A stretch of DNA of 52,139 nt. It comes from an uncultured Bacteroidota bacterium (GTDB lineage Bacteria; Bacteroidota; Bacteroidia; Bacteroidales; F082). Each line of letters begins with the position of its first letter. Positions within the stretch are counted from its first letter, which is position 1. Shown here piece after piece: positions 5,053 to 36,824 of this stretch. The position numbers and the translations under genes are program-made. Location: positions 1 to 52,139 of the forward strand of contig CAJBPB010000237.1 of assembly GCA_903957365.1 (NCBI GenBank), read 5' to 3'. Under the pieces are notes generated by a model that did no database searches, had not been told where the DNA came from, and saw nothing but the letters and a program-made list of their open reading frames with translations.

Positions 5053-5883
5053 TTAATTCCATCCGAAATATATTCCGTTGTGCATAATCAATCTTGATCC
5101 AAGATAAAAAAGGAGTGTAAAAATGATCAGACCTCTCATGGGGCGGATTCTGCGGTTGTCGTCATCATCAAACATCAGTTCATCGCCAAAACGTGAACGC
5201 ATATAAAAAATGATCAGCATTACTCCAAGAACAATCCAGCTGTATCGTTCGTGAAAAAAACTCTTTGGAACGAAATAGAGATATACCATCACAGATCCGA
5301 TTAGATATGGCACAAAGACCTGGGCAGTTAAAAAAAATGGTGCCATTTTTTCTGTAAATCTTGTGAAATACACATTCGATGAAGTTGCAATCATGCTAAA
5401 TGCGAATACTGCCATTGTTAATAATCCAAAGAAACCGACCAGTGCCAGTAATAGTTTTGCTGTATCCTGCAGATACATCCAGTTAAAAACGTGTCCGATG
5501 CCCTGAGTCAGCAGATTTCCTAACAATAGCCCTCCAAAAAAATAGGTTGCTGAATGAATTATCAGCCAGAAGAAAAATATTTTTACTGGAATTGGGTCAG
5601 CCAGCAAACTATAAAAACCAAGTATTGAAAGAACCCCGATAATTAAAGTAGCAACATATCCGGCACTAAAAATCAGGAAAACGGCATCATGCGTCCATTC
5701 ATAGGGTTCAATATGAAAATAAAATGTTGCATAATCTACAGTGATCGGGTAATCATACATTCCCGCTGTCAACACAAACATCATTTGATTGACATAGAAA
5801 ATAAATAAATAGGCCATTACGAACGAGGCTGTTGAATTGATCGCAATGATCCAGAAATTATATCGGGTAAGTTGTGTTTCCAA
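5053..5883 (-). CDS. Integral membrane protein of unknown function, about 7 TM segments
   Basis: I do not recognise this 276-residue protein. It has about seven hydrophobic helices, a cytoplasmic-looking loop rich in Asp and Arg (DDDDNRR) before the last helix, and no HExxH, Walker or other catalytic motif that I can see. The start is TTG at 5883; the first ATG in frame lies within the first helix, so a later start is unlikely. It is preceded on the same strand by a strong bidirectional hairpin (5899-5927) that separates it from the oxoamine synthase gene. No clear promoter box lies in the short gap, so expression may depend on readthrough. Its last codon abuts the peptidase stop. Confidence 0.75.
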   Translation of the reverse strand: METQLTRYNFWIIAINSTASFVMAYLFIFYVNQMMFVLTAGMYDYPITVDYATFYFHIEPYEWTHDAVFLIFSAGYVATLIIGVLSILGFYSLLADPIPVKIFFFWLIIHSATYFFGGLLLGNLLTQGIGHVFNWMYLQDTAKLLLALVGFFGLLTMAVFAFSMIATSSNVYFTRFTEKMAPFFLTAQVFVPYLIGSVMVYLYFVPKSFFHERYSWIVLGVMLIIFYMRSRFGDELMFDDDDNRRIRPMRGLIIFTLLFYLGSRLIMHNGIYFGWN

Positions 5884-5898
5884 AGTTGTTTAGAATAA

Positions 5899-5927
5899 AA
5901 AAAAGCCATCAAGCAGATGGCTTTTTT
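5899..5927 (-). terminator. Bidirectional intrinsic terminator
   Basis: A perfect 12-bp inverted repeat (AAAAAAGCCATC, loop AAGCA, GATGGCTTTTTT) lies 11 nt beyond the stop of the oxoamine synthase gene. It gives a GC-containing stem and a T-run on both strands, so it should end transcription of that minus-strand gene. Confidence 0.88.
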
Positions 5928-5938
5928 GATGAAATTAT

Positions 5939-7186
5939 TTACAAGGAGCCGATATCGGCCATTTCTGTTGAATATAATTTTTGTTCAAGTTTTTCCTTCA
6001 CTTCCTTGAATGCCTTGATTGTGTATGAAACATCTTCAAGGGTGTGCACTGCTGTTGGTATCAAACGAAGCAATATTACACCTTTTGGAACAACTGGATA
6101 GGTTACAATAGAACAGAAAATATTATAATTTTCACGTAAATCATAAGTAATCTGTGTAGCTTCACCCACACCACCATATAACATTACTGGTGTAACAGGT
6201 GACTCGGTATTACCAATATCGAGTCCGGCTTCTTTCAATCCGTTTTGCAGCGCATTCACAATGGTCCAAAGTCTTTCACGATGCACAGATTGTGTTCTTA
6301 TTAACTCCAGGCGTTTCAAAGCACCTACTACCATTGGCATAGGCAATGATTTTGCAAAAATCTGAGACCGCATATTGTACATCAGATATTTAATTACCTG
6401 TTTTGGCCCGGCAATAAAACCACCTATTCCTGCCATAGATTTAGCAAAGGTTCCAAAATACAAATCCACATCCTTCTGAACATCAAAGTGTTCGTCTGTA
6501 CCAGCACCTGTTGGTCCCATTGTTCCAAAACCATGGGCATCATCAACAAGTAACCTGAAATTATACTTCTCTTTCAAAGCAACAATGGCTTTTAAATCGC
6601 CAAGATCCCCCGACATCCCATAAACACCTTCAGTAATTACTAAAATTCCACCACCTGTTTCATTGGTCATTTTAGTAGCACGTTGCAGTTGTTTTTCAAG
6701 ACTCTCAATATTATTGTGAGGGTAAACAAAACGTTTTCCGATGTGAAGACGCATACCATCAATGATACAGGCATGGGCCTCAGAATCATATACAATTACG
6801 TCCTTCCGGTCAACCATATTATCTATAATGGAAACCATTCCCTGATAGCCATAATTTAAAAGATAAGCTGACTCACGTTTTACATAATCAGCCAATTCAT
6901 GTTCAAGTTGCTCATGTAAATTGGATTGACCCGACATCATTCTGGCACCCATTGGATATGCCATGCCGTATTTGGCTGCACCCTCGGCATCTGCTTTTCT
7001 TACATCAGGGTGATTTGCCAATCCGAGGTAGTTATTTAAACTCCAGATTAATCTTTCTTTTCCTTTGAAAATCATTTTGTTACCGATTTCACCTTCAAGT
7101 TTCGGGAACATAAAATATCCTTCGGCCTGATCAGCGTAAATGCCTAACGGACCAAGATTTACTGTACATTTATTGAAAACATCCAC
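5939..7186 (-). CDS. Alpha-oxoamine synthase family PLP enzyme, serine palmitoyltransferase-like
   Basis: A 415-residue fold-type I PLP enzyme of the family that joins an amino acid to an acyl thioester with loss of CO2. The PLP lysine is Lys249 in TFAKSMAG, the ring-stacking histidine is His138 (SEAHAC), and the DDAHGFG motif (Asp215, His218) binds the pyridine nitrogen and phenolic oxygen. In Bacteroidota the usual member is serine palmitoyltransferase, which starts sphingolipid synthesis; cysteate acyltransferase for sulfonolipids or an aminoketone synthase are alternatives I cannot exclude. No bioC, bioD or threonine dehydrogenase gene is near, which argues against KBL or BioF roles. The start is GTG 7186, about 18 nt below a TAAATTTG promoter box. 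Confidence 0.85.
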   Translation of the reverse strand: MDVFNKCTVNLGPLGIYADQAEGYFMFPKLEGEIGNKMIFKGKERLIWSLNNYLGLANHPDVRKADAEGAAKYGMAYPMGARMMSGQSNLHEQLEHELADYVKRESAYLLNYGYQGMVSIIDNMVDRKDVIVYDSEAHACIIDGMRLHIGKRFVYPHNNIESLEKQLQRATKMTNETGGGILVITEGVYGMSGDLGDLKAIVALKEKYNFRLLVDDAHGFGTMGPTGAGTDEHFDVQKDVDLYFGTFAKSMAGIGGFIAGPKQVIKYLMYNMRSQIFAKSLPMPMVVGALKRLELIRTQSVHRERLWTIVNALQNGLKEAGLDIGNTESPVTPVMLYGGVGEATQITYDLRENYNIFCSIVTYPVVPKGVILLRLIPTAVHTLEDVSYTIKAFKEVKEKLEQKLYSTEMADIGSL

Positions 7187-26366: not shown

Positions 26367-27512
26367 CTATAAATCAATTATTTGTTCTTTGTATTCAATT
26401 CCTCTTTCGCTCAGTCTCTCAAGAATGAATTTTACACTTGCTGCATCTTTACCAACGAATTCCGGAACATTAATTCCGATACTGTTGTAAATTCCGGCAT
26501 CAAGCATTCGTAATGCTGCAGTTGCTGTGTAACCTGTTGTGCGCGCCATTGAGTGAATATTTGTTGCCATATCGTAAATATCAAACAAATCATAAACATA
26601 TCTTTTTCTCTGGCCGGTCGAATTTTCGCCTTCAACAATAATTCGCATTACTGTAAAATCTTCTTCATTTTCACCAAGTTTCCAGGAAGGAAAAAGCATT
26701 TTTTTTGTAAATTCCAGAGGAATTATTTCGGTGTTATTTATGATAACTGGCTCTGTTCCGAAGAAGCCACTTTTCTTTAAAACTTTAATTTTATCAATAT
26801 GGCCCTGATATCTCAGCGTTTTTTCGGCCATATAATCAGCCTTGATTGTATAAACAAGTGAACGTAAACCATCACTGTTAAATGCTTCAAGTGTTCCAAC
26901 AGAACCAAAATCAATCAATTCAGATTCTGATAATGCCTCTTTAAAAACGATATTCCCATTTTCAACCAATCGGGCCGGACGGGTATATTCTTCTATAACA
27001 TCAGAAGGTGAAAAAACAGCTTTATACTCCCATGGAAAAGTTCTTACTTTTGGTAATCCTCCGACATAAATCAAAATCTTTTCAATTTTTACCAACTGTG
27101 AGGCAGCATAACCACTTAGTAAATGACTCATTCCAGGCGCGACACCCATATCACATATTACACAAACCTCATTTTGTTTTGCCAATTCATTCAGATCGAG
27201 TGGATTTTCTGCATAAAAGGCAATATCCACAACATTTTTTTTTGATTCTATTATTGCCTTTAATGATTTAAATCCGATAGAACCTGGTACTGCATTGATT
27301 ACCAGATCATAATCTGATATAACTTCTTTAACTTGATTTGAATCTGAAAGATCACGTTTGAATGTTCTGGCCCTTGTTCCGCTAAATTTATCTAAAGCCT
27401 TCTCTGAGAAGTCAGCAATTCCCACTTCAAACTCATCATTTTTTAACAAATCGAGTGCCATTGGTCGGCCAACCAACCCTGCTCCTAAAATAATAACGCT
27501 TCTTTTTGACAT
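26367..27512 (-). CDS. Saccharopine dehydrogenase family oxidoreductase
   Basis: A 381-residue NAD(P)-dependent enzyme. The N-terminal Rossmann motif is ILGAGLVGRPMALDLL (Gly-x-Gly-x-x-Gly), and the central CDMGVAPGMSHLLSGYA and TRPARLVENG belong to the saccharopine dehydrogenase/reductase fold. Its substrate could be saccharopine, lysine-derived amino acids or a carboxynorspermidine-type compound; the neighbours do not settle this. It follows the EamA permease gene after 30 nt. Confidence 0.88.
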   Translation of the reverse strand: MSKRSVIILGAGLVGRPMALDLLKNDEFEVGIADFSEKALDKFSGTRARTFKRDLSDSNQVKEVISDYDLVINAVPGSIGFKSLKAIIESKKNVVDIAFYAENPLDLNELAKQNEVCVICDMGVAPGMSHLLSGYAASQLVKIEKILIYVGGLPKVRTFPWEYKAVFSPSDVIEEYTRPARLVENGNIVFKEALSESELIDFGSVGTLEAFNSDGLRSLVYTIKADYMAEKTLRYQGHIDKIKVLKKSGFFGTEPVIINNTEIIPLEFTKKMLFPSWKLGENEEDFTVMRIIVEGENSTGQRKRYVYDLFDIYDMATNIHSMARTTGYTATAALRMLDAGIYNSIGINVPEFVGKDAASVKFILERLSERGIEYKEQIIDL

Positions 27513-27542: not shown

Positions 27543-28439
27543 TTAAACTTTTGACTGTTTAAAGTTATATTCAGATAAGATTACACCCAAGATGACAATC
27601 ATCATTCCTGTTAGTTTTTGAATACTCAATGTTTCATTTAAAAAGTAATAGCTGAATATAGCCGTAAAAACAGGTATAAGATTTGCGTACAAGCTAGCAC
27701 GTGCGATTCCAAATTCCTTTACTGATCTGGTGTAAAATACAAACGCAAGTGAACTTGCAAATATTCCTAGAAGTAATAAATTTATAATCAAATGCGCATC
27801 AAAAGTATCTGTACTAATATTTCCGTTTCCCCAAAAAAAAACCAGTGGAAGAAAGTAAAAAATTCCAATGATATTCTGCGTAGTGATAATTATGACCGGA
27901 TTATAATGAAATGTAAGTTTCTTGAGTAAAATTCCATGACCTACAGCTGCTGCAACTGCACCAAAAAGAAAAAGTATACCATACCAGGAAATTCCTAGGT
28001 TTCCGATGGATTTATCCAGAACGATAATCAATACACCTAAAATGGATACTGCTAAACCAACGATATTTAATAATTTAAGTCTTTCCTTCAAAACAATAAA
28101 TGCTATCATCGGAGTGAAAACAGGAATCGTTGAAATAATAACAGCACTTATTGTGGGAGTAACGAGTTGTAAACCATAACTTTCTCCAATGAAATACAAA
28201 AATGGATTCAGAAAGGAAGAAACAATGAAAATAGGATAATGCCTGGTTTTTATAACCTGCCATTTTCGGGTGATTGTAAGCAGCAAAAGGAGGGTAAAGG
28301 CTGAAATTATTAACCTGATGAAAACTGTTTCTATTGGGCCAAGATATTCAAAAACAACTTTTGACCAGATATACGACATCCCCCAAAAAATCATGGATAG
28401 CAAGGCTAACACATGAACTGAGGCATTATTTGTTTTCAA
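27543..28439 (-). CDS. EamA (DMT superfamily) permease
   Basis: A 298-residue inner-membrane protein with about ten helices, built as two EamA repeats; the second ends with the typical FTAIFSYYFLNETLSIQKLTG run. These carriers export amino acids or other small metabolites. The start is TTG 28439 (the next in-frame Met lies in the first helix). It is the first gene of the likely operon with the saccharopine dehydrogenase-like and TrmH genes. Confidence 0.9.
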   Translation of the reverse strand: MKTNNASVHVLALLSMIFWGMSYIWSKVVFEYLGPIETVFIRLIISAFTLLLLLTITRKWQVIKTRHYPIFIVSSFLNPFLYFIGESYGLQLVTPTISAVIISTIPVFTPMIAFIVLKERLKLLNIVGLAVSILGVLIIVLDKSIGNLGISWYGILFLFGAVAAAVGHGILLKKLTFHYNPVIIITTQNIIGIFYFLPLVFFWGNGNISTDTFDAHLIINLLLLGIFASSLAFVFYTRSVKEFGIARASLYANLIPVFTAIFSYYFLNETLSIQKLTGMMIVILGVILSEYNFKQSKV

Positions 28440-28507
28440 GAGATTGAATTTTTAAAATTTTAATCAGCTGCACGCCAATATATTGTGAAGTAAGATCTTC
28501 AATATAT

Positions 28508-29254
28508 TTAAGACCTGCCTTCTTCCTGAAGAAGATTGGTGTAATGCTTAAAACTTCTTAGAAGCAATGCGATCAATCCAGTCACAATAAGGATTGCAGT
28601 AGATAATCTTGACAAATTGTAAATACCATGATAGGCATAATACCTTATCTGGTCAACAAAAACAAATCCCAAAACAGTGGCCAATGCACCAGAATATTCA
28701 CGGCGCAAAACACTTTTAACACTGAACGGAATTACATTTTTCTTGTAATTTTTAAAAGAGGGAAGAAATGCAGGTGTTGTTAAAGACCAATCCATATAGG
28801 TGCTTCCAAATTTTTTCTCAAGGAATCTTTCCTCGGCAAACATAATTCGCTCATAATAAAGCCAAAAAGCCAGAGAAATAATGATAACAAAACTAAAATT
28901 GAATGTGAAAACCACGATTCCAATCCACATAAAATAATTCCCAACGTATAAAGGGTGTCTTAAAACCGAATAAATTCCTGTTGAGTTCAGTGATTCAGCA
29001 ACTTGTCCTTCTTTCGTATTTCGGCCTGAGGTACCTTTGGGTGTGGTGCCAATGGCATAGGAACGGATTGCAAATCCCAACAGACTTAGGAAAATTGCAA
29101 AAAGCGACAGGAGAATTTCATGTTCGTCAGATAAATAATCTGTGTTTGTGAAATATACCACTGGAATAGCCAGAACAAACAACATTACCGGTAATTCGCC
29201 GCGGTGTTTGAAAAGCCAGTTTCCACTTTTTTCAAATGAGTGAATTAATGCCAT
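28508..29254 (-). CDS. ICMT-like membrane methyltransferase
   Basis: A 248-residue membrane protein with four to six helices. The motif RHPLYVGNYFMWIG and the later EERFLEKKFGSTYMDW mark the isoprenylcysteine carboxyl methyltransferase-like family, which binds S-adenosylmethionine at the membrane. Bacterial relatives modify lipids such as lipid A phosphate, or unknown acceptors. An in-frame ATG at 29287 was rejected because a TACATTTG promoter box at 29275-29282 lies after it; ATG 29254 then has a leader of about 15 nt. Confidence 0.85.
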   Translation of the reverse strand: MALIHSFEKSGNWLFKHRGELPVMLFVLAIPVVYFTNTDYLSDEHEILLSLFAIFLSLLGFAIRSYAIGTTPKGTSGRNTKEGQVAESLNSTGIYSVLRHPLYVGNYFMWIGIVVFTFNFSFVIIISLAFWLYYERIMFAEERFLEKKFGSTYMDWSLTTPAFLPSFKNYKKNVIPFSVKSVLRREYSGALATVLGFVFVDQIRYYAYHGIYNLSRLSTAILIVTGLIALLLRSFKHYTNLLQEEGRS

Positions 29255-29274
29255 AATTTGAGCTTTTTGAGGCA

Positions 29275-29282
29275 CAAATGTA
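29275..29282 (-). promoter_or_regulatory. Promoter -7 box TACATTTG for the ICMT-like gene
   Basis: Exact TAnnTTTG match lying between the two candidate start codons, which decides for the downstream ATG at 29254. Confidence 0.65.
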
Positions 29283-29382
29283 GTCATTTTAACACTTCAA
29301 TCAGTATTGTAAGACTTACAATAGTATTAAATTCTAGGCTTTTTGATGTAAAATGTGAATGTTTTAATATAGAGAAAAAAGA

Positions 29383-30177
29383 TTAATCACCGATATTTTT
29401 ATTGATAAGATAGACTTTTATTGATCCAACGACAATTTTTGCATCAATGAGAACCGGAATTTTATACTTATCATCAGTTACCCAGATTGTAATTTTTTCA
29501 CCACTTCGAAACATGGTTCCTTTGTCGATAATGGCAGAGAATTTTGTACATATTACCGGTGAATTGTTCATCCCTTCCATAATTTCTTTACCATGATAAA
29601 CAATAGGTAATTTGAAAAGTCTACCATCATGAATAAGTTTAATCATGATAGTATCCCCAACCCAATTATTGGAAAAGTCCATGGAACGGGCAACATAGGT
29701 TGCAGTCAGAATATCGTAGGTGCAATCCGAAATAGAAATGGAATCAAATTTATACTCCGAATTATTATCCCTCATTTTTGCATAGACTACATTTTTATCA
29801 TTATCAAAACTGTATTGATCCATATTGTATATGCCACCTTCCAGCGTAGATCGCCTGAATTCTATCGGATAAAGGTTTTTTGCATTTGAAATCACCTGAA
29901 ATGTGTCCCGGACTTTATAAATCCATTCCCATTTTTTTTCTGAAATGCCCGTACTTGTAAATTGATATGTTTCATAGCCATTCAATGTTTGTTTAGTTGC
30001 CATGAAATCCACAAATCCGGCATCGATCCAGATAATGCCGAAATTATACGAAACTTTATAGTTTAAAATCTCCTTATTTCCAAAATCGATTCTCGAATTA
30101 TTACATTCAACTTCATTTTGAGCAACAAGTATATTGAGACAAGCAAAGAAAATCAGAAGAATAAAAAACCGGATCAT
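29383..30177 (-). CDS. Exported DUF3108 family protein
   Basis: A 264-residue protein with a signal peptide (about residues 1-19, ending LVAQ). The beta-rich remainder, with LNYKVSYNFGIIWIDAGFVDF near the start and WVTDDKYKIPVLIDAKIVVGSIKVYL at the end in two separate blocks, matches DUF3108, a periplasmic or outer-membrane-associated family without known function. A TAGTTTTG box gives a leader of about 14 nt. It is divergent from the kamA operon. Confidence 0.85.
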   Translation of the reverse strand: MIRFFILLIFFACLNILVAQNEVECNNSRIDFGNKEILNYKVSYNFGIIWIDAGFVDFMATKQTLNGYETYQFTSTGISEKKWEWIYKVRDTFQVISNAKNLYPIEFRRSTLEGGIYNMDQYSFDNDKNVVYAKMRDNNSEYKFDSISISDCTYDILTATYVARSMDFSNNWVGDTIMIKLIHDGRLFKLPIVYHGKEIMEGMNNSPVICTKFSAIIDKGTMFRSGEKITIWVTDDKYKIPVLIDAKIVVGSIKVYLINKNIGD

Positions 30178-30196
30178 TCAGATGTTAATTTCTCTT

Positions 30197-30204
30197 CAAA
30201 ACTA
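30197..30204 (-). promoter_or_regulatory. Promoter -7 box TAGTTTTG for the DUF3108 gene
   Basis: Exact TAnnTTTG match on the minus strand 20 nt from ATG 30177. Confidence 0.55.
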
Positions 30205-30364
30205 ATCAAATGTGACTAACCTCGCAGTTTTTTAAATTTTGTTGGTTTATAAAATGACTAAAATACTGATATTTAATTAATTAAATGGGGATAACTAAAC
30301 TTAAAAAAAAATATTATTTGTTGTATATTTCATCTTGATTTTAGATTATTATTGCAGACTTTTA

Positions 30365-30396
30365 TTTGCAGAAGTTGAAATGTATAAATAACTTTA
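30365..30396 (+). promoter_or_regulatory. Likely promoter of the kamA-ATP-grasp operon
   Basis: TTTG (30365-30368) is followed after 20 nt by TAACTTTA (30389-30396), a one-mismatch version of TAnnTTTG. Both elements and the spacing fit the Bacteroidota -33/-7 pattern. The leader to ATG 30429 would be about 26 nt. Confidence 0.55.
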
Positions 30397-30428
30397 GATC
30401 AATCAATTAAAAAAAACAAATCATTAAA

Positions 30429-31694
30429 ATGAAAGATTTTGTAAATGACAATGTGACCATAAATCCAACTGACATTGTCGAATTAGAAGAACCTCCAAGT
30501 ATTATTAATGGATCAGGAATTTTAAATGCAGCCAAAAATCTGATTACAGTCAATGAAACAGCTGAAATGCTGATTTCGGAGAAAGTAAAATCATTTATTC
30601 AAAAGCATTTTCCGCAAGTAAAGCAAACAGATTGGAATAATTGGAAATGGCAAATCAGCCATAGTTACACCGATATACAGCAATTGAATACAATTTTTGC
30701 CACGCAATCTATCGAATTTGATTCAAACAAAGGAGCATCTGAATTATTACCTTTACGTATCACACCTTATTATGCGAGTTTATTTTACCAATCCAGGCTT
30801 GATGATCCGATAAGAAGGACTGTGGTACCATCTGTCTTAGAGTTAGAGTTAAACAGAGGTGAAATTACAGATCCGTTAAGCGAAGAAAACCATAGTCCGG
30901 TGCCCAATCTGGTTCATCGGTATCCTGACCGGGTATTGTTTCTGGCAACTGGTTTTTGTTCAGCGTATTGTCGCTATTGCACACGCACACATATGGTTGC
31001 CAAAGATAAATGCCATGTTGGAAAGGATTCATGGGAGCCGGCGCTACAATATATTGCTAAACATAAAGAGATCAGAGATGTAATTGTTTCAGGCGGTGAT
31101 CCTTTGAGTATGCCGGATGAGCAGATCGATTATCTGCTTTCTCGTTTGCGTGCTGTTGATCATATTGAGATCATCCGTATTGGAACAAAAATTCCTGTTG
31201 TTTTACCTATGCGAATTACACATTCGTTGGTTTCAATTCTGAAGAAATACCATCCTTTGTTTATGAGCATTCACTTTACGCATCCTGACGAGCTTACACC
31301 AGAGGTAAAGCGGGCATGTGAACTTTTGGCCGATGCTGGAATTCCTTTGGGAAGTCAGACAGTGCTTTTAAAAGGAATAAACGATTCAGTTGAAATAATG
31401 AAACAATTGATGCATGGATTGTTAAAAATACGCGTGCGTCCATATTATCTGTATCAATGCGATCCAATTCCAGGATCGATGCATTTTCGGACACCTGTTT
31501 CAAAGGGAATTGAAATTATCAAAGGTTTACGAGGTTTTACATCAGGTTATGCGGTTCCACAATTCGTAATTGATGCACCAGGTGGTGGTGGAAAAATACC
31601 ATTGTTACCTGATTATTTTCAAGGATTTGAGGAGGGTGATGTATTATTGAAGAATTACGAGGACAAGTACTTCCGCTATCCCGACGCATTATAA
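30429..31694 (+). CDS. kamA: Lysine 2,3-aminomutase-like radical SAM enzyme (KamA family)
   Basis: A 421-residue PLP-dependent radical SAM aminomutase. The cluster cysteines are Cys177, Cys181 and Cys184 (CSAYCRYCTR), the PLP lysine is Lys389 in DAPGGGGK, and Arg186, Asp345 and Asp382 match the substrate-binding Arg134, Asp293 and Asp330 of the clostridial lysine enzyme. All seven residues keep one constant offset of 52. The two aspartates bind the lysine side-chain amine and are replaced in glutamate 2,3-aminomutases, so L-lysine to beta-lysine is the likely reaction. Compared with the clostridial protein it has about 52 extra N-terminal residues and is about 47 shorter at the C-terminus. 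No kamDE fermentation genes, efp or epmA are nearby; two ATP-grasp genes follow. Confidence 0.92.
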   Translation: MKDFVNDNVTINPTDIVELEEPPSIINGSGILNAAKNLITVNETAEMLISEKVKSFIQKHFPQVKQTDWNNWKWQISHSYTDIQQLNTIFATQSIEFDSNKGASELLPLRITPYYASLFYQSRLDDPIRRTVVPSVLELELNRGEITDPLSEENHSPVPNLVHRYPDRVLFLATGFCSAYCRYCTRTHMVAKDKCHVGKDSWEPALQYIAKHKEIRDVIVSGGDPLSMPDEQIDYLLSRLRAVDHIEIIRIGTKIPVVLPMRITHSLVSILKKYHPLFMSIHFTHPDELTPEVKRACELLADAGIPLGSQTVLLKGINDSVEIMKQLMHGLLKIRVRPYYLYQCDPIPGSMHFRTPVSKGIEIIKGLRGFTSGYAVPQFVIDAPGGGGKIPLLPDYFQGFEEGDVLLKNYEDKYFRYPDAL

Positions 31695-31714
31695 AGTAAC
31701 ATTATGAAACTCTT

Positions 31715-32692
31715 ATGAAAATTGGTCTTACTTACGACTTGCGTGATGCTTATCTCGCAATGGGATTTACTGAAGATGAAACCGCTGAACTCGATAAGGA
31801 AGAAACAATCGAAGGCATTGAGGCGGCTCTGATTGCCTTGGGCCACGAAACAGAACGGATAGGTCATTTAAAAGAATTGCAAATAGCACTGTCAGAAGGG
31901 AAGAGTTGGGATTTGGTATTCAATATATGCGAGGGAATTTATGGTATTGGCCGTGAAGCCCAGGTACCTGCTTTATTGGATGCCTGGCAAATTCCCTATA
32001 CTTTTTCTGACCCGCTGGTTTTATCCCTGACCCTTCATAAAGGAATGACAAAGAGGATATTGCGTGATGCAGGTATACCAACAGGCGCTTTTTATTTAAT
32101 TAGAGAAAAGAGTGATGTTAAGTCTGTTAAACTTGATTTTCCACTTTTCGTTAAACCGGTTGCTGAAGGATCAGGTAAGGGAATTGACAGAAGATCAACA
32201 GTATATGATCAATTGGCTTTGGAAGAAGTTTGTAATCGTCTGTTAACTGATTACAAACAAGAAGTTTTGGTTGAGGAGTTTCTTCCTGGAAGAGAATTTA
32301 CGGTGGGAATTGTTGGCACTGGTGAGAAGGCAGTTTGTGTTGGAGGAATTGAAGTGATCATTTCAGAAACTGCTGAAGAAAATTCATATTCAAGATTCAT
32401 CAAGGAGAATTATGAAGGAAGGGTTGAATACAAACTCATGGGGGGCGAAATGGCAGAGAAATGTGAGGCACTGTGTCTGAATGCCTGGCGTTTATTGGGT
32501 TGCAGGGATGCCGGAAGAATAGATGTTCGTCTTGATAAAAATGGCGAACCCTGTTTTATTGAGGTAAATCCTTTGGCAGGTTTAAATCATATACATTCTG
32601 ATTTACCAATCATCATGTATAAAAAAGGACACACATTTAAAGATTTGATAGAAAAGATCGTTTTGTCAGCATCAGACAGATTAAAACAATAA
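31715..32692 (+). CDS. D-Ala-D-Ala ligase-like ATP-grasp ligase (first of pair)
   Basis: A 325-residue ATP-grasp enzyme. The metal ligands Asp270, Glu283 and Asn285 have the 13- and 2-residue spacing of D-Ala-D-Ala ligase, Lys147 (FVKPVAEGSGKG) is the ATP-binding lysine and EEFLPGREFTVGIV follows as in Ddl. However, the N-terminal GxSxE motif that holds the first D-alanine is missing (the start reads MKIGLTYDLRDAYLAMG), and the ligase serine region after Asn285 differs. It is therefore unlikely to be the cell-wall Ddl. It should form an amide or peptide bond by way of an acyl phosphate. It begins 20 nt after kamA and is 2 nt from the second ligase gene. Confidence 0.88.
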   Translation: MKIGLTYDLRDAYLAMGFTEDETAELDKEETIEGIEAALIALGHETERIGHLKELQIALSEGKSWDLVFNICEGIYGIGREAQVPALLDAWQIPYTFSDPLVLSLTLHKGMTKRILRDAGIPTGAFYLIREKSDVKSVKLDFPLFVKPVAEGSGKGIDRRSTVYDQLALEEVCNRLLTDYKQEVLVEEFLPGREFTVGIVGTGEKAVCVGGIEVIISETAEENSYSRFIKENYEGRVEYKLMGGEMAEKCEALCLNAWRLLGCRDAGRIDVRLDKNGEPCFIEVNPLAGLNHIHSDLPIIMYKKGHTFKDLIEKIVLSASDRLKQ

Positions 32693-32694
32693 TC

Positions 32695-33669
32695 ATGAAA
32701 ATATTAATTATCCATAATAAATTGAGCGAGAATGCTTTGACTGATGAGATGGATGTCATGGAACAAGTCAGGCTGGTAGAAGAATCACTCATATCACTTG
32801 ACCATGAAGTTAGAGTACTTCCTGTTTCTCTTGATTTATCGAAAGCAATTGCAGATATTAGAGCTATATCCCCTGAACTAATTTTCAATTTAGTCGAATC
32901 GTTTGAAAATAAAGGAGAGTTGGTGTATTTTGCTCCTGCTATACTCGATGTTTTGAAAATTCCATATACAGGAACCCACACAGTGCAGATGTTTCTTTCT
33001 TCGAGTAAGACACTAACAAAAGAAAGTTTAATCAGACATAGTATTCCAACACCAGGAAGTTTCGAAATCAATGTTTTGCATCAGATTCAGAAAGAAAAAA
33101 AATACATTTTGAAACCAAAATGGGAAGAAGGATCGTTGGGCTTGGATGAGGATGCTGTTTTTTCTGGAGATAATATTGATTTTGTCAAAAAACTGAAAAA
33201 TTATTCCTTAAAAGATTATTTTATTGAGGAATTTGTTGAAGGCCGTGAATTTAACTGTGCATTGATTGCCGAAGAAAATGGTCCGAGTGTTTTGGCTGTA
33301 GCTGAAATTGAATTTGTTGATTTTCCTGAAAATAAGCCTAAAATATTAGGTTACAAAGCCAAATGGGACGAAGAATCCTTTGAATATAAGAACACTGTGA
33401 GGAGATTGGATTTTGATGAAACCGACGGTAGTCTATTGGCCGGATTGGGTGAACTTGCAAAAAAATGCTGGTTCGCATGTGGATTGAGAGGATATGCACG
33501 GATCGATTTCAGGGTTGATAAGTTAGGGAATCCATTTGTTCTGGAAGTGAATTCAAATCCATGTATTTCTCCTGACAGTGGTTATTATGCTGCTGCGGTT
33601 CATGCCGGTTTACCGTTTACAAAAGTTGTTCAATTGATCATTGAAGATGCATTTCGTAGTCACAATTAA
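32695..33669 (+). CDS. D-Ala-D-Ala ligase-like ATP-grasp ligase (second of pair)
   Basis: A 324-residue ATP-grasp enzyme, paralogous to its upstream neighbour but clearly divergent. It keeps the Mg ligands Asp271, Glu284 and Asn286 with identical spacing, the ATP lysine in ILKPKWEEGSLGL (Lys140), and EEFVEGREFNCAL. After the Asn the sequence reads SNPCISPDSGYYAAA, unlike the first ligase (PLAGLNHIH), which suggests a different acceptor. The N-terminal Ddl motif is also missing. Spacing of 2 nt from the first ligase indicates coupled translation and joint action on one product. Confidence 0.88.
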   Translation: MKILIIHNKLSENALTDEMDVMEQVRLVEESLISLDHEVRVLPVSLDLSKAIADIRAISPELIFNLVESFENKGELVYFAPAILDVLKIPYTGTHTVQMFLSSSKTLTKESLIRHSIPTPGSFEINVLHQIQKEKKYILKPKWEEGSLGLDEDAVFSGDNIDFVKKLKNYSLKDYFIEEFVEGREFNCALIAEENGPSVLAVAEIEFVDFPENKPKILGYKAKWDEESFEYKNTVRRLDFDETDGSLLAGLGELAKKCWFACGLRGYARIDFRVDKLGNPFVLEVNSNPCISPDSGYYAAAVHAGLPFTKVVQLIIEDAFRSHN

Positions 33670-33682
33670 TAAATATTTTGAA

Positions 33683-34174
33683 ATGAATTCTATAGTATTT
33701 CGCTCCTATGTGATTGATTCAGATCCTGATACGATTGAAAAAATAATCCGTTCCTCTGGTTTTTTCTATGAGGATGAAATTCCAATTGCCCGTGAACTGG
33801 CCGAAGAAACATTGAAGCAAGGTGAATTGAGTGGTTATAAATTTGTATTCGCTGAGATTGATGGTGAAACTCTGGGTTATGCTGCATATGGTTTTATTGA
33901 TGGAACCGATGGTAGTTATGATTTGTATTGGATCGCTGTGCGCAATGAACTGCGGGGAAAGGGAATAGGCAAAGCGATTCTTGAGGAAGTTATGGTTGTC
34001 TTAAAAAAGGAAAATGGCAGACAGTTGATCGCTGAAACATCATCACTGGAAAAATACTTGCCAACACGTGAATTTTATCTGCATCATGGATTTAATCTTG
34101 TTGCTACAATCCCAAATTTTTTCAGGGTAGGGGATGATAAGGTGTTTTATTTGAAAAAGATAAAGGAAAATTAA
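33683..34174 (+). CDS. GNAT family N-acetyltransferase of the kamA cluster
   Basis: A 163-residue acetyltransferase with the acetyl-CoA pyrophosphate loop RGKGIG near residue 92 and a C-terminal segment TREFYLHHGF typical of the fold. I take ATG 33683 as the start, since the frame from 33641 would overlap the ligase gene by 29 nt. In some archaea and bacteria lysine 2,3-aminomutase is paired with a beta-lysine acetyltransferase (AblA/AblB) that makes the osmolyte N-epsilon-acetyl-beta-lysine; here the GNAT is shorter than AblB as I recall it and comes after two ligases, so it may act on a ligated product instead. Confidence 0.85.
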   Translation: MNSIVFRSYVIDSDPDTIEKIIRSSGFFYEDEIPIARELAEETLKQGELSGYKFVFAEIDGETLGYAAYGFIDGTDGSYDLYWIAVRNELRGKGIGKAILEEVMVVLKKENGRQLIAETSSLEKYLPTREFYLHHGFNLVATIPNFFRVGDDKVFYLKKIKEN

Positions 34175-34178
34175 CTGG

Positions 34179-34850
34179 TTAAAAATAATTCCTCTCACCA
34201 AATATTTTTGTCCCAACCCTGACGATAGTTGATCCTTTGGCAATGGCCAATGCAAAATCGCTGGACATACCCATAGAAATTTCTTTAAAGTATTCTTTAT
34301 CAGAAAAGTAAATTGATTTTAGTGTTTCAAAAATTTGTTTCAGATTACGAAATTCTCTGGAAATTTGCTCTGAATCATCTGTAAATGTTGCCATTCCCAT
34401 TACACCACAAATGATCGTATTTAAAAGAGGTTCGGTTTGTAAATATTGTAAAATCTCAATTGCTTCTGATAAATCAAGTCCAAACTTGGTTTCTTCTTCA
34501 GCAATGTGAAACTGCATGAGTACTTTTTGATTCCTGCTTACTTTACCAGCCTGTTTATCGATTTCCTGAAGCAATTTCAAGCTATCGACCGATTCGATCA
34601 TTTCAACAAATGCAGCAATATATTTCACTTTGTTGGTTTGCAAATGACCTATTAAATGCCATTGAATATCTGAAGGAAGTTGATTCTGTTTATTCACCAA
34701 TTCCTGAACTTTGTTTTCTCCAAAGAGCCGTTCTCCGCAATCATACGCTTCTTTAAGCATTGTAACAGGCATTGTTTTAGTGACAACCACAAGCTTTACA
34801 TTTGCTGGTATCTGTTTTTTAACTTCGAGAATATTTGATTTAATTGACAT
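34179..34850 (-). CDS. yggS: YggS/PLPBP family pyridoxal phosphate homeostasis protein
   Basis: A 223-residue PLP-binding TIM-barrel protein. The PLP lysine is Lys25 in VVVTKTMP; GENKVQEL, WHLIGHLQTNKVK and SMGMSSDFALAIAKGSTIVRVGTKIFG (read in pieces) are the typical family blocks. It keeps PLP levels balanced. The start at ATG 34850 is chosen because a TAAATTTG promoter box (34875-34882) overlaps the upstream in-frame ATG at 34877. It converges with the kamA operon after 4 nt, which may be a coincidence although KamA itself needs PLP. Confidence 0.93.
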   Translation of the reverse strand: MSIKSNILEVKKQIPANVKLVVVTKTMPVTMLKEAYDCGERLFGENKVQELVNKQNQLPSDIQWHLIGHLQTNKVKYIAAFVEMIESVDSLKLLQEIDKQAGKVSRNQKVLMQFHIAEEETKFGLDLSEAIEILQYLQTEPLLNTIICGVMGMATFTDDSEQISREFRNLKQIFETLKSIYFSDKEYFKEISMGMSSDFALAIAKGSTIVRVGTKIFGERNYF

Positions 34851-34874
34851 ATTTGAATCTTCGCTTTCTGAATA

Positions 34875-34882
34875 CAAATTTA
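34875..34882 (-). promoter_or_regulatory. Promoter -7 box TAAATTTG for yggS
   Basis: Exact TAnnTTTG match on the minus strand. It decides the yggS start codon in favour of 34850. Confidence 0.65.
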
Positions 34883-34940
34883 GGTTTTAAATTGGCAAAA
34901 CACCTGTGTTTTCGAAATCTGATTGTTTCATGGAATAATC

Positions 34941-34948
34941 TATTTTTG
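34941..34948 (+). promoter_or_regulatory. Promoter -7 box TATTTTTG, likely leaderless gene
   Basis: Exact TAnnTTTG match followed by CCGC and then ATG 34953, the same 4-nt spacing as at bamD. Confidence 0.65.
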
Positions 34949-34952
34949 CCGC

Positions 34953-36824
34953 ATGAAAAATGCATTGTTTCAACTTCTGAAGATATTGGGTAAGAGATTC
35001 ATTTTTTGGTTATTGTTTTTTACCGTTTTGCGTTCAGTTTTTCTAATTTATTATAGATATCTTCTTGTTTCAGAGTCGATTCCGGCAACCGATATTTTGT
35101 TAACATTCGTAAACGCGTTTTGGTTAGACGTTTCCACTGCTTGTTACCTTTTGCTTTTTCCGCTATTCATCTACTCTTTTCATTTGTTCAAACCAAATAG
35201 TTTTTCTGCAAAGATTGAAGCAGTTTATACATTGCTTATGATCAGTATTTATTCATTGATCGCTGCTGCTGAACTTGGACTGTATGCTGAATGGAAAACG
35301 AAATTATCATACAAGGCTTTGGCTTACCTCAAAAATCCGGACGAAGTCTTCAATTCTGCTTCAACCTCCGAATTCATACTTTTGATTTCTATCTGGATGG
35401 TTCAGACTTTACTTGCGTTTTACTTATTTAAAAAATTGATAATCAGATATAAACAGATTGAAAAAATCCGGATATCAGCTGTAATTTTATCATTTATTAT
35501 TTACTTTTTCATCATTTTTACTGGCATCAGAGGTGGTTGGACTGCTATTCCGATAACCACAAGCGCAGCTTACTTTAGTCAACATAATATTTTAAATATG
35601 GCTGCGGTAAATCCAGGTTACAATATGTTGATGAGTAGCATTAATTCGGGTAGTTTTAATAATCAAAACCTGTTTAATACTATGCCGGTTGATGAAGCCA
35701 GACAATTGGTAAATTCCATTCATAATGTTGAAAAAGACACTACTATTTCCATATTTAAAGTCAAAAAGCCAAATATTGTTGTTCTGTTGCTAGAAAGCTG
35801 GTCGGCTGATTTAATTGAATCATTGGGAGGAGAGGCTGGAATCACGCCAAATTTCAGACAATTGGAGGCTGAGGGATTGTTATTTACAAATTTCTACACC
35901 AGCGCCAACCGCTCACAACAGGCAATGGGATCGCTCTTCGCCGGAATCCCAGGTATACCGATCACCACAATCACCAACCATCCGGAAAAATATGCCGCTT
36001 TGCCAAGTCTGGTTCAGGATCTGAAAAAAGTGGATTATTATACCAGCTTCTATTTCGGGGGTGAACTTATATATGGAAACATTTTGTCGTATTTAATGCA
36101 CAATGAATTTGATAAAATTGTCGAAGGTAAAGATCTGGATGCCATTATGCCTCGTGGAAAACTAGGTGTACATGATGAATATTTACTTAAGCATTTTGCC
36201 TTGGCTTTAAACAGCCAGAGACAACCTTTTTTCAGTACTGTTTTTACCCTTAGTTCACATTCACCTTATGATTTCCCGAAGTCATCCGATATTCAATGGC
36301 CAAAACTGGAAAAGGAATTTGTAAATTCAGCAGCCTATTCCGATTATAGTCTGGGTGAGTTTTTTAAGTTGGCCAAGCTACAATCATGGTACGAAAACAC
36401 AGTATTTGTTGTAATGGCCGACCATAGTCATAATACCTACCGTAACCATGAGTTACAGTCGTTTGCCTATCATAAAATACCACTTTTGATTTTTGGACCT
36501 GCTCTGGTGGATTCATTGCGTGGAAAACAGTTCGATAAGATTTCCGGAAATACAGATGTCACTGCAACTTTGTTGGCTCAGTTGGGCTTAAGTTCAAAAG
36601 ATTATCCGTGGAGTAAAAATCTCTTCAATCCTTATTATCAGCAATTTGCTTATTTTGAATTGAATGAAGGATTTGGATGGAAACGCCCCGAAGGTGAATA
36701 TGTTTGGAATCAATTGACTAACAAAGCTTTTGTTGACAGTCTGCCTGTTGATAGCCGCGAAAGAATTATCAAAGAAGGAAAGGCATATTTGCAAGTCTGG
36801 TATAGTGAATTTCTTAATTATTAA
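34953..36824 (+). CDS. LTA synthase-like membrane phosphotransferase (sulfatase fold)
   Basis: A 623-residue protein with five N-terminal membrane helices (to about residue 195) and a large extracytoplasmic alkaline phosphatase-fold domain. Metal ligands fit Glu281 (LLLESWS), Asp490 and His491 (VMADHSHNT). The nucleophile position, usually Thr in LtaS-type RTxxG motifs, appears to be Ser321 in ANRSQQAMGSLFAG. Such enzymes move phosphoglycerol or phosphoethanolamine from phospholipid to a glycan or lipid. In Bacteroidota there is no classic lipoteichoic acid, so the acceptor is unknown. The start ATG 34953 lies 4 nt after the promoter box; the frame from 34923 would include the promoter. Confidence 0.88.
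   Translation: MKNALFQLLKILGKRFIFWLLFFTVLRSVFLIYYRYLLVSESIPATDILLTFVNAFWLDVSTACYLLLFPLFIYSFHLFKPNSFSAKIEAVYTLLMISIYSLIAAAELGLYAEWKTKLSYKALAYLKNPDEVFNSASTSEFILLISIWMVQTLLAFYLFKKLIIRYKQIEKIRISAVILSFIIYFFIIFTGIRGGWTAIPITTSAAYFSQHNILNMAAVNPGYNMLMSSINSGSFNNQNLFNTMPVDEARQLVNSIHNVEKDTTISIFKVKKPNIVVLLLESWSADLIESLGGEAGITPNFRQLEAEGLLFTNFYTSANRSQQAMGSLFAGIPGIPITTITNHPEKYAALPSLVQDLKKVDYYTSFYFGGELIYGNILSYLMHNEFDKIVEGKDLDAIMPRGKLGVHDEYLLKHFALALNSQRQPFFSTVFTLSSHSPYDFPKSSDIQWPKLEKEFVNSAAYSDYSLGEFFKLAKLQSWYENTVFVVMADHSHNTYRNHELQSFAYHKIPLLIFGPALVDSLRGKQFDKISGNTDVTATLLAQLGLSSKDYPWSKNLFNPYYQQFAYFELNEGFGWKRPEGEYVWNQLTNKAFVDSLPVDSRERIIKEGKAYLQVWYSEFLNY

Follow-up and report, generated by a model that had tools for sequence, protein, structure and literature searches.

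A conserved operon of a lysine 2,3-aminomutase-like enzyme, two ATP-grasp ligases and an acetyltransferase, and its possible product, an acetylated beta-lysine amide

Closest described systems

In the AblA/AblB system, a KamA-family aminomutase is combined with an acetyltransferase of the GNAT family, yielding the osmolyte N-epsilon-acetyl-beta-lysine; AblAB of Pelobacter carbinolicus is treated in PMC3543383. The same two enzyme types, together with two additional ligases of the D-Ala-D-Ala ligase (Ddl) fold, are encoded by a four-gene operon (kamA, gA, gB and GNAT) in a stretch of 52 139 nucleotides from an uncultured Bacteroidota bacterium (assembly GCA_903957365.1, contig CAJBPB010000237.1), which is referred to here as the window and represents contig C237 of a genome of 4.44 Mb in 385 contigs. 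We consider it rather probable that this operon encodes a pathway to a small, acetylated and polyamine-like amide of beta-lysine. Besides the two extra ligases, the operon differs from AblAB in its acetyltransferase, i.e. the AblB-type family (TIGR03827) has no match in the window genome at E<=0.001 and is not among the four NCBIfam matches of protein P0004, which supports the distinction from AblAB drawn in a previous reading of this DNA made from its letters (the sequence-only reading).

A KamA-like gene also adjoins an ATP-grasp ligase gene in the Pbo cluster (pboF/pboG), but, according to PMC8473136, the ATP-grasp is there of the L-amino-acid-ligase type and the cluster is larger. Acetylpolyamine amidohydrolases share the HDAC fold with a partner domain found in some relatives of the operon, which differs by one or two fused GNAT domains. 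The pathway to N-acetylglutaminylglutamine amide resembles the operon in using an ATP-grasp enzyme and a GNAT with a hydrolase nearby, but it is not known to involve KamA and would use other ligase families; its families were not among the NCBIfam matches listed, which for protein P0002 were 25 of 40. Pyrrolysine synthesis likewise employs a radical S-adenosylmethionine (SAM) enzyme, the lysine mutase PylB, ahead of an amide ligase of the ATP-grasp type, PylC, but PylB makes methylornithine. Judged from sequence, the features tested as diagnostic of AblAB, Ddl and EpmB are absent from the operon. The gene set of KamA and a ligase pair did not turn up in searches of one open-access library, in line with the sequence-only reading, which knew of no characterised pathway with these genes, although amidoligase surveys may mention it. 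The operon would represent an undescribed and widespread pathway built from known enzyme folds.

Gene order, conservation and co-occurrence

The four genes lie on the forward strand at positions 30429-31694 (kamA, 421 amino acids, aa), 31715-32692 (gA, 325 aa), 32695-33669 (gB, 324 aa) and 33683-34174 (GNAT, 163 aa counted from ATG). Calling of open reading frames (ORFs) on the window gives gaps of 20, 2 and 13 nucleotides, confirming the codirectional four-gene operon that had been read from the letters. The flanking ORFs (29383-30177 and 34179-34877) are both on the reverse strand, and the operon therefore forms an isolated unit. Its predicted products are a KamA-family radical SAM amino acid 2,3-aminomutase of the lysine type, a D-Ala-D-Ala-ligase-fold ATP-grasp protein that is probably an amide ligase, a second protein of this fold with an NxNPC signature, and a GNAT-family N-acetyltransferase that is not of the AblB type.

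Scanning genome contigs with a gA profile gave at least 566 confirmed relatives, and the best 80 of these are referred to as the closest-80 set. By record title, this set comes mostly from Bacteroidetes/Bacteroidales or Deltaproteobacteria/Desulfobacterales, with single titles naming Krumholzibacteriia, KSB1, Acidobacteria, Neomarinimicrobiota, Patescibacteria and Nitrococcus; since the relatives are metagenome assemblies, binning errors are possible in the phylum assignment. Where the flanks were long enough, kamA was located upstream of gA in 65 of 69 loci, gB downstream in 73 of 75 and GNAT downstream in 64 of 70. The search for a conserved kamA-ATP-grasp-ATP-grasp-GNAT order, suggested by the sequence-only reading, was therefore positive in several phyla by record title, which supports a shared pathway.

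Co-occurrence points in the same direction. Among 296 sampled genomes of the window's phylum, 59 harbour a gA-like gene and 101 a KamA, and KamA is present in 58 of the 59 genomes with a gA-like gene vs 43 of the 237 without (Fisher p ~1e-32, uncorrected for kinship; the 43 take in every genome with KamA at E<=1e-60). In 48 of the 59 genomes, KamA and gA share a strand and lie no more than 4 kb apart; in 10 KamA is located elsewhere and in 1 it is missing. This count left out the ten weakest KamA rows (E 4.4e-85 to 5.6e-61) and scored genome G311 as 'elsewhere', though gA and gB-GNAT-kamA are split there between two contigs (the latter is L248). Of the 48 linked genomes, 47 have kamA after gA, either directly (7) or with a gap of 1.4 to 2.1 kb (40). 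This gap is filled by gB and GNAT, i.e. the order is gA-gB-GNAT-kamA in 10/10 fetched loci of the wide-gap class, and the four genes are therefore kept together in two orders, with kamA first or last. Five loci of the same phylum (L149-L151, L157 and L158) have gA without adjoining kamA or gB, and KamA elsewhere in the genome. In a sample of the phylum around the L063 genome, which is titled Desulfobulbaceae, 84 of 247 genomes carry a gA-like gene (E<=1e-60); 60 of the 85 gA matches of that sample were fetched, selected by their scores in such a way that the low-scoring bands are covered completely or almost so. Both this count and the 59/296 mix operon variants.

A lysine-type aminomutase

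The kamA protein scores 360.9 bits against the KamA family TIGR00238 (cut-off 199.2) and stays under the cut-offs of the glutamate and arginine 2,3-aminomutase equivalogs (416.9 and 354.8 vs 650 and 600). It aligns over residues 61-418 to the solved lysine 2,3-aminomutase 2a5h. The cysteines C177, C181 and C184 of the radical SAM motif CxxxCxxC and K389 within GGGGK, the pyridoxal phosphate lysine, are invariant in all 34 rows of alignment A4. The same holds for D345 (YQCD) and D382 (DAPGGGGK), which are the same residues in 2a5h and presumably bind the side-chain amine of lysine. These two aspartates support the lysine-type KamA of the sequence-only reading. The window genome, searched with its own KamA, gave one match, i.e. 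the protein itself.

KamA has changed subfamily between operon types. In 16 genomes with window-like operons the best KamA copy scores at least 677 against A4 and other copies at most 496, while KamA of the rearranged operons scores 460-491 and that of some operons in the window's order from the Desulfobacterota sample 464-546.

Two divergent ligases

Both ATP-grasp proteins match Dala_Dala_lig_C, share 29 % identity over 286 columns and are predicted with high confidence to adopt the D-Ala ligase fold (mean pLDDT 91.3 for gA and 94.1 for gB). Like Ddl, they retain the aligned ATP-grasp residues, with K147, E187, D270, E283 and N285 invariant in gA and D271 and N286 in gB, as well as the arginine (R268 in gA, R269 in gB) whose equivalent binds the second substrate in Ddl. 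In view of this arginine, a carboxylate-bearing acceptor in at least one step would fit. In contrast to Ddl, the first-substrate motif GGx[ST]xExx[VISA]S is absent from all 52 gA and all 57 gB rows, i.e. from 109/109, but present in 12/12 Ddl controls, which confirms the loss noted in the sequence-only reading. An acidic N-terminal motif (E25, D27 and T31) takes its place in gA, with E25 and D27 invariant in 52 rows, and the gA signature matches 46 of the 52 rows of alignment A2; gB carries NxNPC in 57/57 rows. The 50 rows listed per ligase in fold searches are all D-Ala-type ligases, and these searches therefore do not name the substrates. To call these two large groups of proteins 'D-alanine--D-alanine ligase' would be doubtful, and a simple sequence test separates them.

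A tree of 118 rows unites gB from every operon type in one clade (starred support of 99) and sets Ddl apart on a long branch; the gB clade returns in a 68-row tree with starred support of 100. Thus, gB is one old group. The gA of the window type forms one group that includes the gA-kamA pairs, with a support of 91 that is not starred, and a single gA clade was not rejected in the 68-row test (p-AU 0.264). The gA-like rows of L206 and L213 fall near Ddl in the 118-row tree, without support. The trees cover rows of 270-420 aa, without ORFs above 470 aa (e.g. the gA ORFs of L144 and L148) and with a reduced number of type I rows. Operon-type labels were assigned by position only, and gA was not recognised in L177, L179, L220 and L221.

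Acetyltransferase, deacetylase and polyamine genes

The GNAT of the kamA operon was assigned to its family by domain search. In 18 of the closest-80 loci the operon contains an HDAC-fold domain resembling acetylpolyamine amidohydrolases, which in 17 is preceded by a recognised GNAT domain; its best solved relatives are the acetylpolyamine amidohydrolases 9gkz and 3q9b. In L063, L070, L096, L104, L112 and L118 the domain is also fused to the operon GNAT, and later locus sets contain it in 7/40, 1/20 and 0/20 loci. GNAT is moreover fused to gB in L065 and L117 and, in the kamA operon of L185, to an agmatinase domain (220.9 vs a cut-off of 174.3). As the ORFs stem from a simple script, fusions in GC-rich loci need care.

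A second link to polyamines is found in 12 of the 60 fetched loci (L180-L184, L205, L208, L209, L211, L215, L217 and L219), in which gA-gB is closely preceded by the gene of a pyruvoyl-dependent arginine decarboxylase, with one gene intervening in L182. Agmatinase is encoded in 10 of these 12 loci and a deoxyhypusine-synthase-like gene in 5 (by phmmer), with a divergent one in L182. No kamA was seen within the 12 loci; exactly one KamA was found elsewhere in each of the 14 genomes searched, i.e. the 12 with the polyamine variant and two similar ones, and all 14 stand-alone KamAs keep both lysine-type aspartates. Polyamine genes of the arginine decarboxylase/agmatinase type occur in none of the closest-80 loci within the fetched flanks. 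The ligases thus appear to be tied to beta-lysine and to polyamines at once. Because of the HDAC-type partner, the polyamine-gene variant and the GNAT-agmatinase fusion, the likely product shifts towards a polyamine-like amide. As a side observation, a small gene of one cluster lies just upstream of the stand-alone KamA in 13 of the 14 genomes (loci L225-L238), and its sole tested member (L230) is MerR-like. A replacement of spermidine was considered and rejected: among 61 relatives, nspC exceeds its cut-off in 0/12 close-gA genomes and 7/49 others, but it does so in none of the 37 genomes of the window's family, whether they carry the operon or lack it, and is therefore uninformative.

Proposed pathway and alternative explanations

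The reactions, the product and its role are those that we infer from the gene set, its order, conservation and co-occurrence, the conserved residues and the predicted folds. KamA would convert L-lysine to beta-lysine. Amide ligation through acyl-phosphates is the established reaction type of the Ddl fold, and the paralogous gA and gB may form two amide bonds in this way; a cationic diamino substrate would be in keeping with the acidic motif that gA carries instead of the Ddl first-substrate motif. GNAT would then cap an amine with an acetyl group, which in some relatives the deacetylase of the acetylpolyamine-amidohydrolase type may remove again. Most likely, the product is an intracellular solute that is non-proteinogenic and polyamine-like, which in some lineages could be joined to, or made beside, agmatine-derived polyamines. 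It is tempting to speculate, if only tentatively, that this is a new class of polyamines, i.e. a polycationic beta-lysine amide, either free or linked to a polyamine derived from agmatine, which is used in several phyla of mostly uncultured bacteria and the charge of which is adjusted by a dedicated acetylation and, in some lineages, by HDAC-type deacetylation. If all gA-like ligases serve one pathway, the chemistry of anoxic sediments and lakes would include an undescribed metabolite that is perhaps abundant. The operon would also connect beta-lysine with the metabolism of polyamines, a connection that can be probed with four genes.

A narrower form of this reading, in which the product is a compatible solute, i.e. 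an N-acetylated di- or tripeptide of beta-lysine with hydrolases for its turnover, is a serious though secondary possibility. The combination of KamA and GNAT follows the logic of AblAB and can also be likened to the N-acetylglutaminylglutamine amide system, and the GNAT-gB fusions and the hydrolases adjoining some loci (the HDAC type in 18/80, an M20 peptidase in L192 and an amidohydrolase in L168) would fit. However, record titles give lake or freshwater samples (Loclat, Lac Pavin) besides marine ones, the window stretch searched has no Rfam match, and the polyamine-gene variant would be left unexplained. That GNAT and deacetylase domains share one polypeptide might instead indicate a protecting group, with GNAT blocking one amine of beta-lysine to direct the ligases to the correct one and the HDAC-type enzyme removing the acetyl group, so that the final product is unacetylated; for other systems, PMC2922099 discusses the acetylation of an amine prior to peptide ligation. 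This is unlikely, as 41 of 51 amply flanked loci have no HDAC partner and the window operon has none either. An exported secondary metabolite such as an antibiotic, signal or metal ligand is suggested by homologous MFS transporters (44 % identity) that adjoin the ligases in L105 (2156-3547) and L192 (1855-3246), and KamA-like and ATP-grasp genes are neighbours in the Pseudomonas syringae Pbo cluster (PMC8473136); but such a transporter was seen in two loci only, gA-like genes in 59/296 and 84/247 genomes look more like general metabolism, and we regard export as quite unlikely.

Two further explanations would leave the ligases or the small molecule aside. As both KamA and GNAT are encoded, N-epsilon-acetyl-beta-lysine could be the product as in AblAB, the ATP-grasps being unrelated passengers. 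Yet no other gene accompanies gA as constantly as gB does (73/75), GNAT has no AblB match and all four genes stay together despite the rearranged order in other genomes, which makes this very improbable. The homology of KamA to EpmB (259.1 bits) would be in keeping with protein modification, either of the EpmA/EpmB type, in which EF-P is beta-lysylated, or in the form of RimK-like tailing, but the EpmB cut-off of 369.3 is not reached, no aminoacyl-tRNA-synthetase-like family stood out by eye among the recurrent neighbours, with no search aimed at EpmA, and the predicted ligase fold is that of the small-molecule Ddl; of all explanations, we give this one the least credence.

Several findings weigh against the pathway to an acetylated, polyamine-like beta-lysine amide itself. 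The kamA protein scores 460.3 against the AblA equivalog TIGR03820, below the cut-off of 525.4, and is therefore not filed as AblA; KamAs of seven of the eight relatives tested likewise fall below it, and only that of L172, which is near but not adjoining gA, passes (529.2). In the gA-kamA pairs L144-L148, QAQ replaces a lysine-type aspartate and GGGGK has no match; since the first lysine-type aspartate is lost, KamA of these loci probably uses another amino acid. In L059, all that precedes the GNAT-HDAC gene is a KamA-like N-terminal fragment (5740-6213, 157 aa) without Pfam match. In the closest-80 set the order test missed kamA in L051, L059, L062 and L073, gB in L062 and L111, and GNAT in L062, L072, L076, L101, L108 and L111. 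In the 118-row tree, gA from the rearranged and from the polyamine variants groups with gB (starred support of 98) and may therefore not be orthologous to the window gA. The HDAC partner is confined to a minority (18/80, or 10/51 loci with ample flanks); the window operon lacks it, and the one HDAC-like match of its genome is unlinked. The GNAT-agmatinase fusion occurs in one locus only, and the absence of nspC does not follow the presence of the operon. Rfam, run on window positions 28000-36000 only, gave no match, and no recurrent neighbour that would name the role is present in more than a minority of loci.

Two groups of KamA homologues may be mentioned here in their own right. L251 and L252 also carry QAQ for the lysine-type aspartate, and in L144 and L145, the two tested, the arginine 2,3-aminomutase model scores best, yet under its cut-off. 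In L051, a similar ORF of 153 codons was placed in the cluster of the L059 fragment by clustering alone.

Upstream region and neighbouring genes

The sequence-only reading had placed the operon behind one likely promoter. A candidate is indeed present at 30365-30396 on the forward strand, with TTTG at 30365, a 20-nucleotide spacer and TAACTTTA at 30389, ending 32 nucleotides before the start of kamA, and the pair matches a Bacteroides-type promoter consensus. Nonetheless, a sigma-70 scan found 23 sites vs 16.9 (standard deviation 3.9) in shuffles, i.e. little more, and the evidence for a promoter upstream of kamA is weak.

A saccharopine-dehydrogenase-like gene of unclear function lies 3 kb away on the reverse strand (26367-27512) and was rejected as a polyamine gene, as it scores 24.7 vs a carboxynorspermidine synthase cut-off of 800. 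Beyond the operon, clustering of recurrent neighbours chiefly recovered lineage-specific synteny. The M20 peptidase gene of L192 is located between the MFS transporter and the ligase genes. L066, L093, L103, L192, L193, L200 and L202-L204, i.e. 3/80, 6/40, 0/20 and 0/20 loci across the sets, contain a regulator of the NtrC type whose receiver domain is of one kind, often upstream of the operon. In the five related loci L172-L176, gA and kamA are separated by genes for a histidine kinase and a response regulator of the NtrC type.

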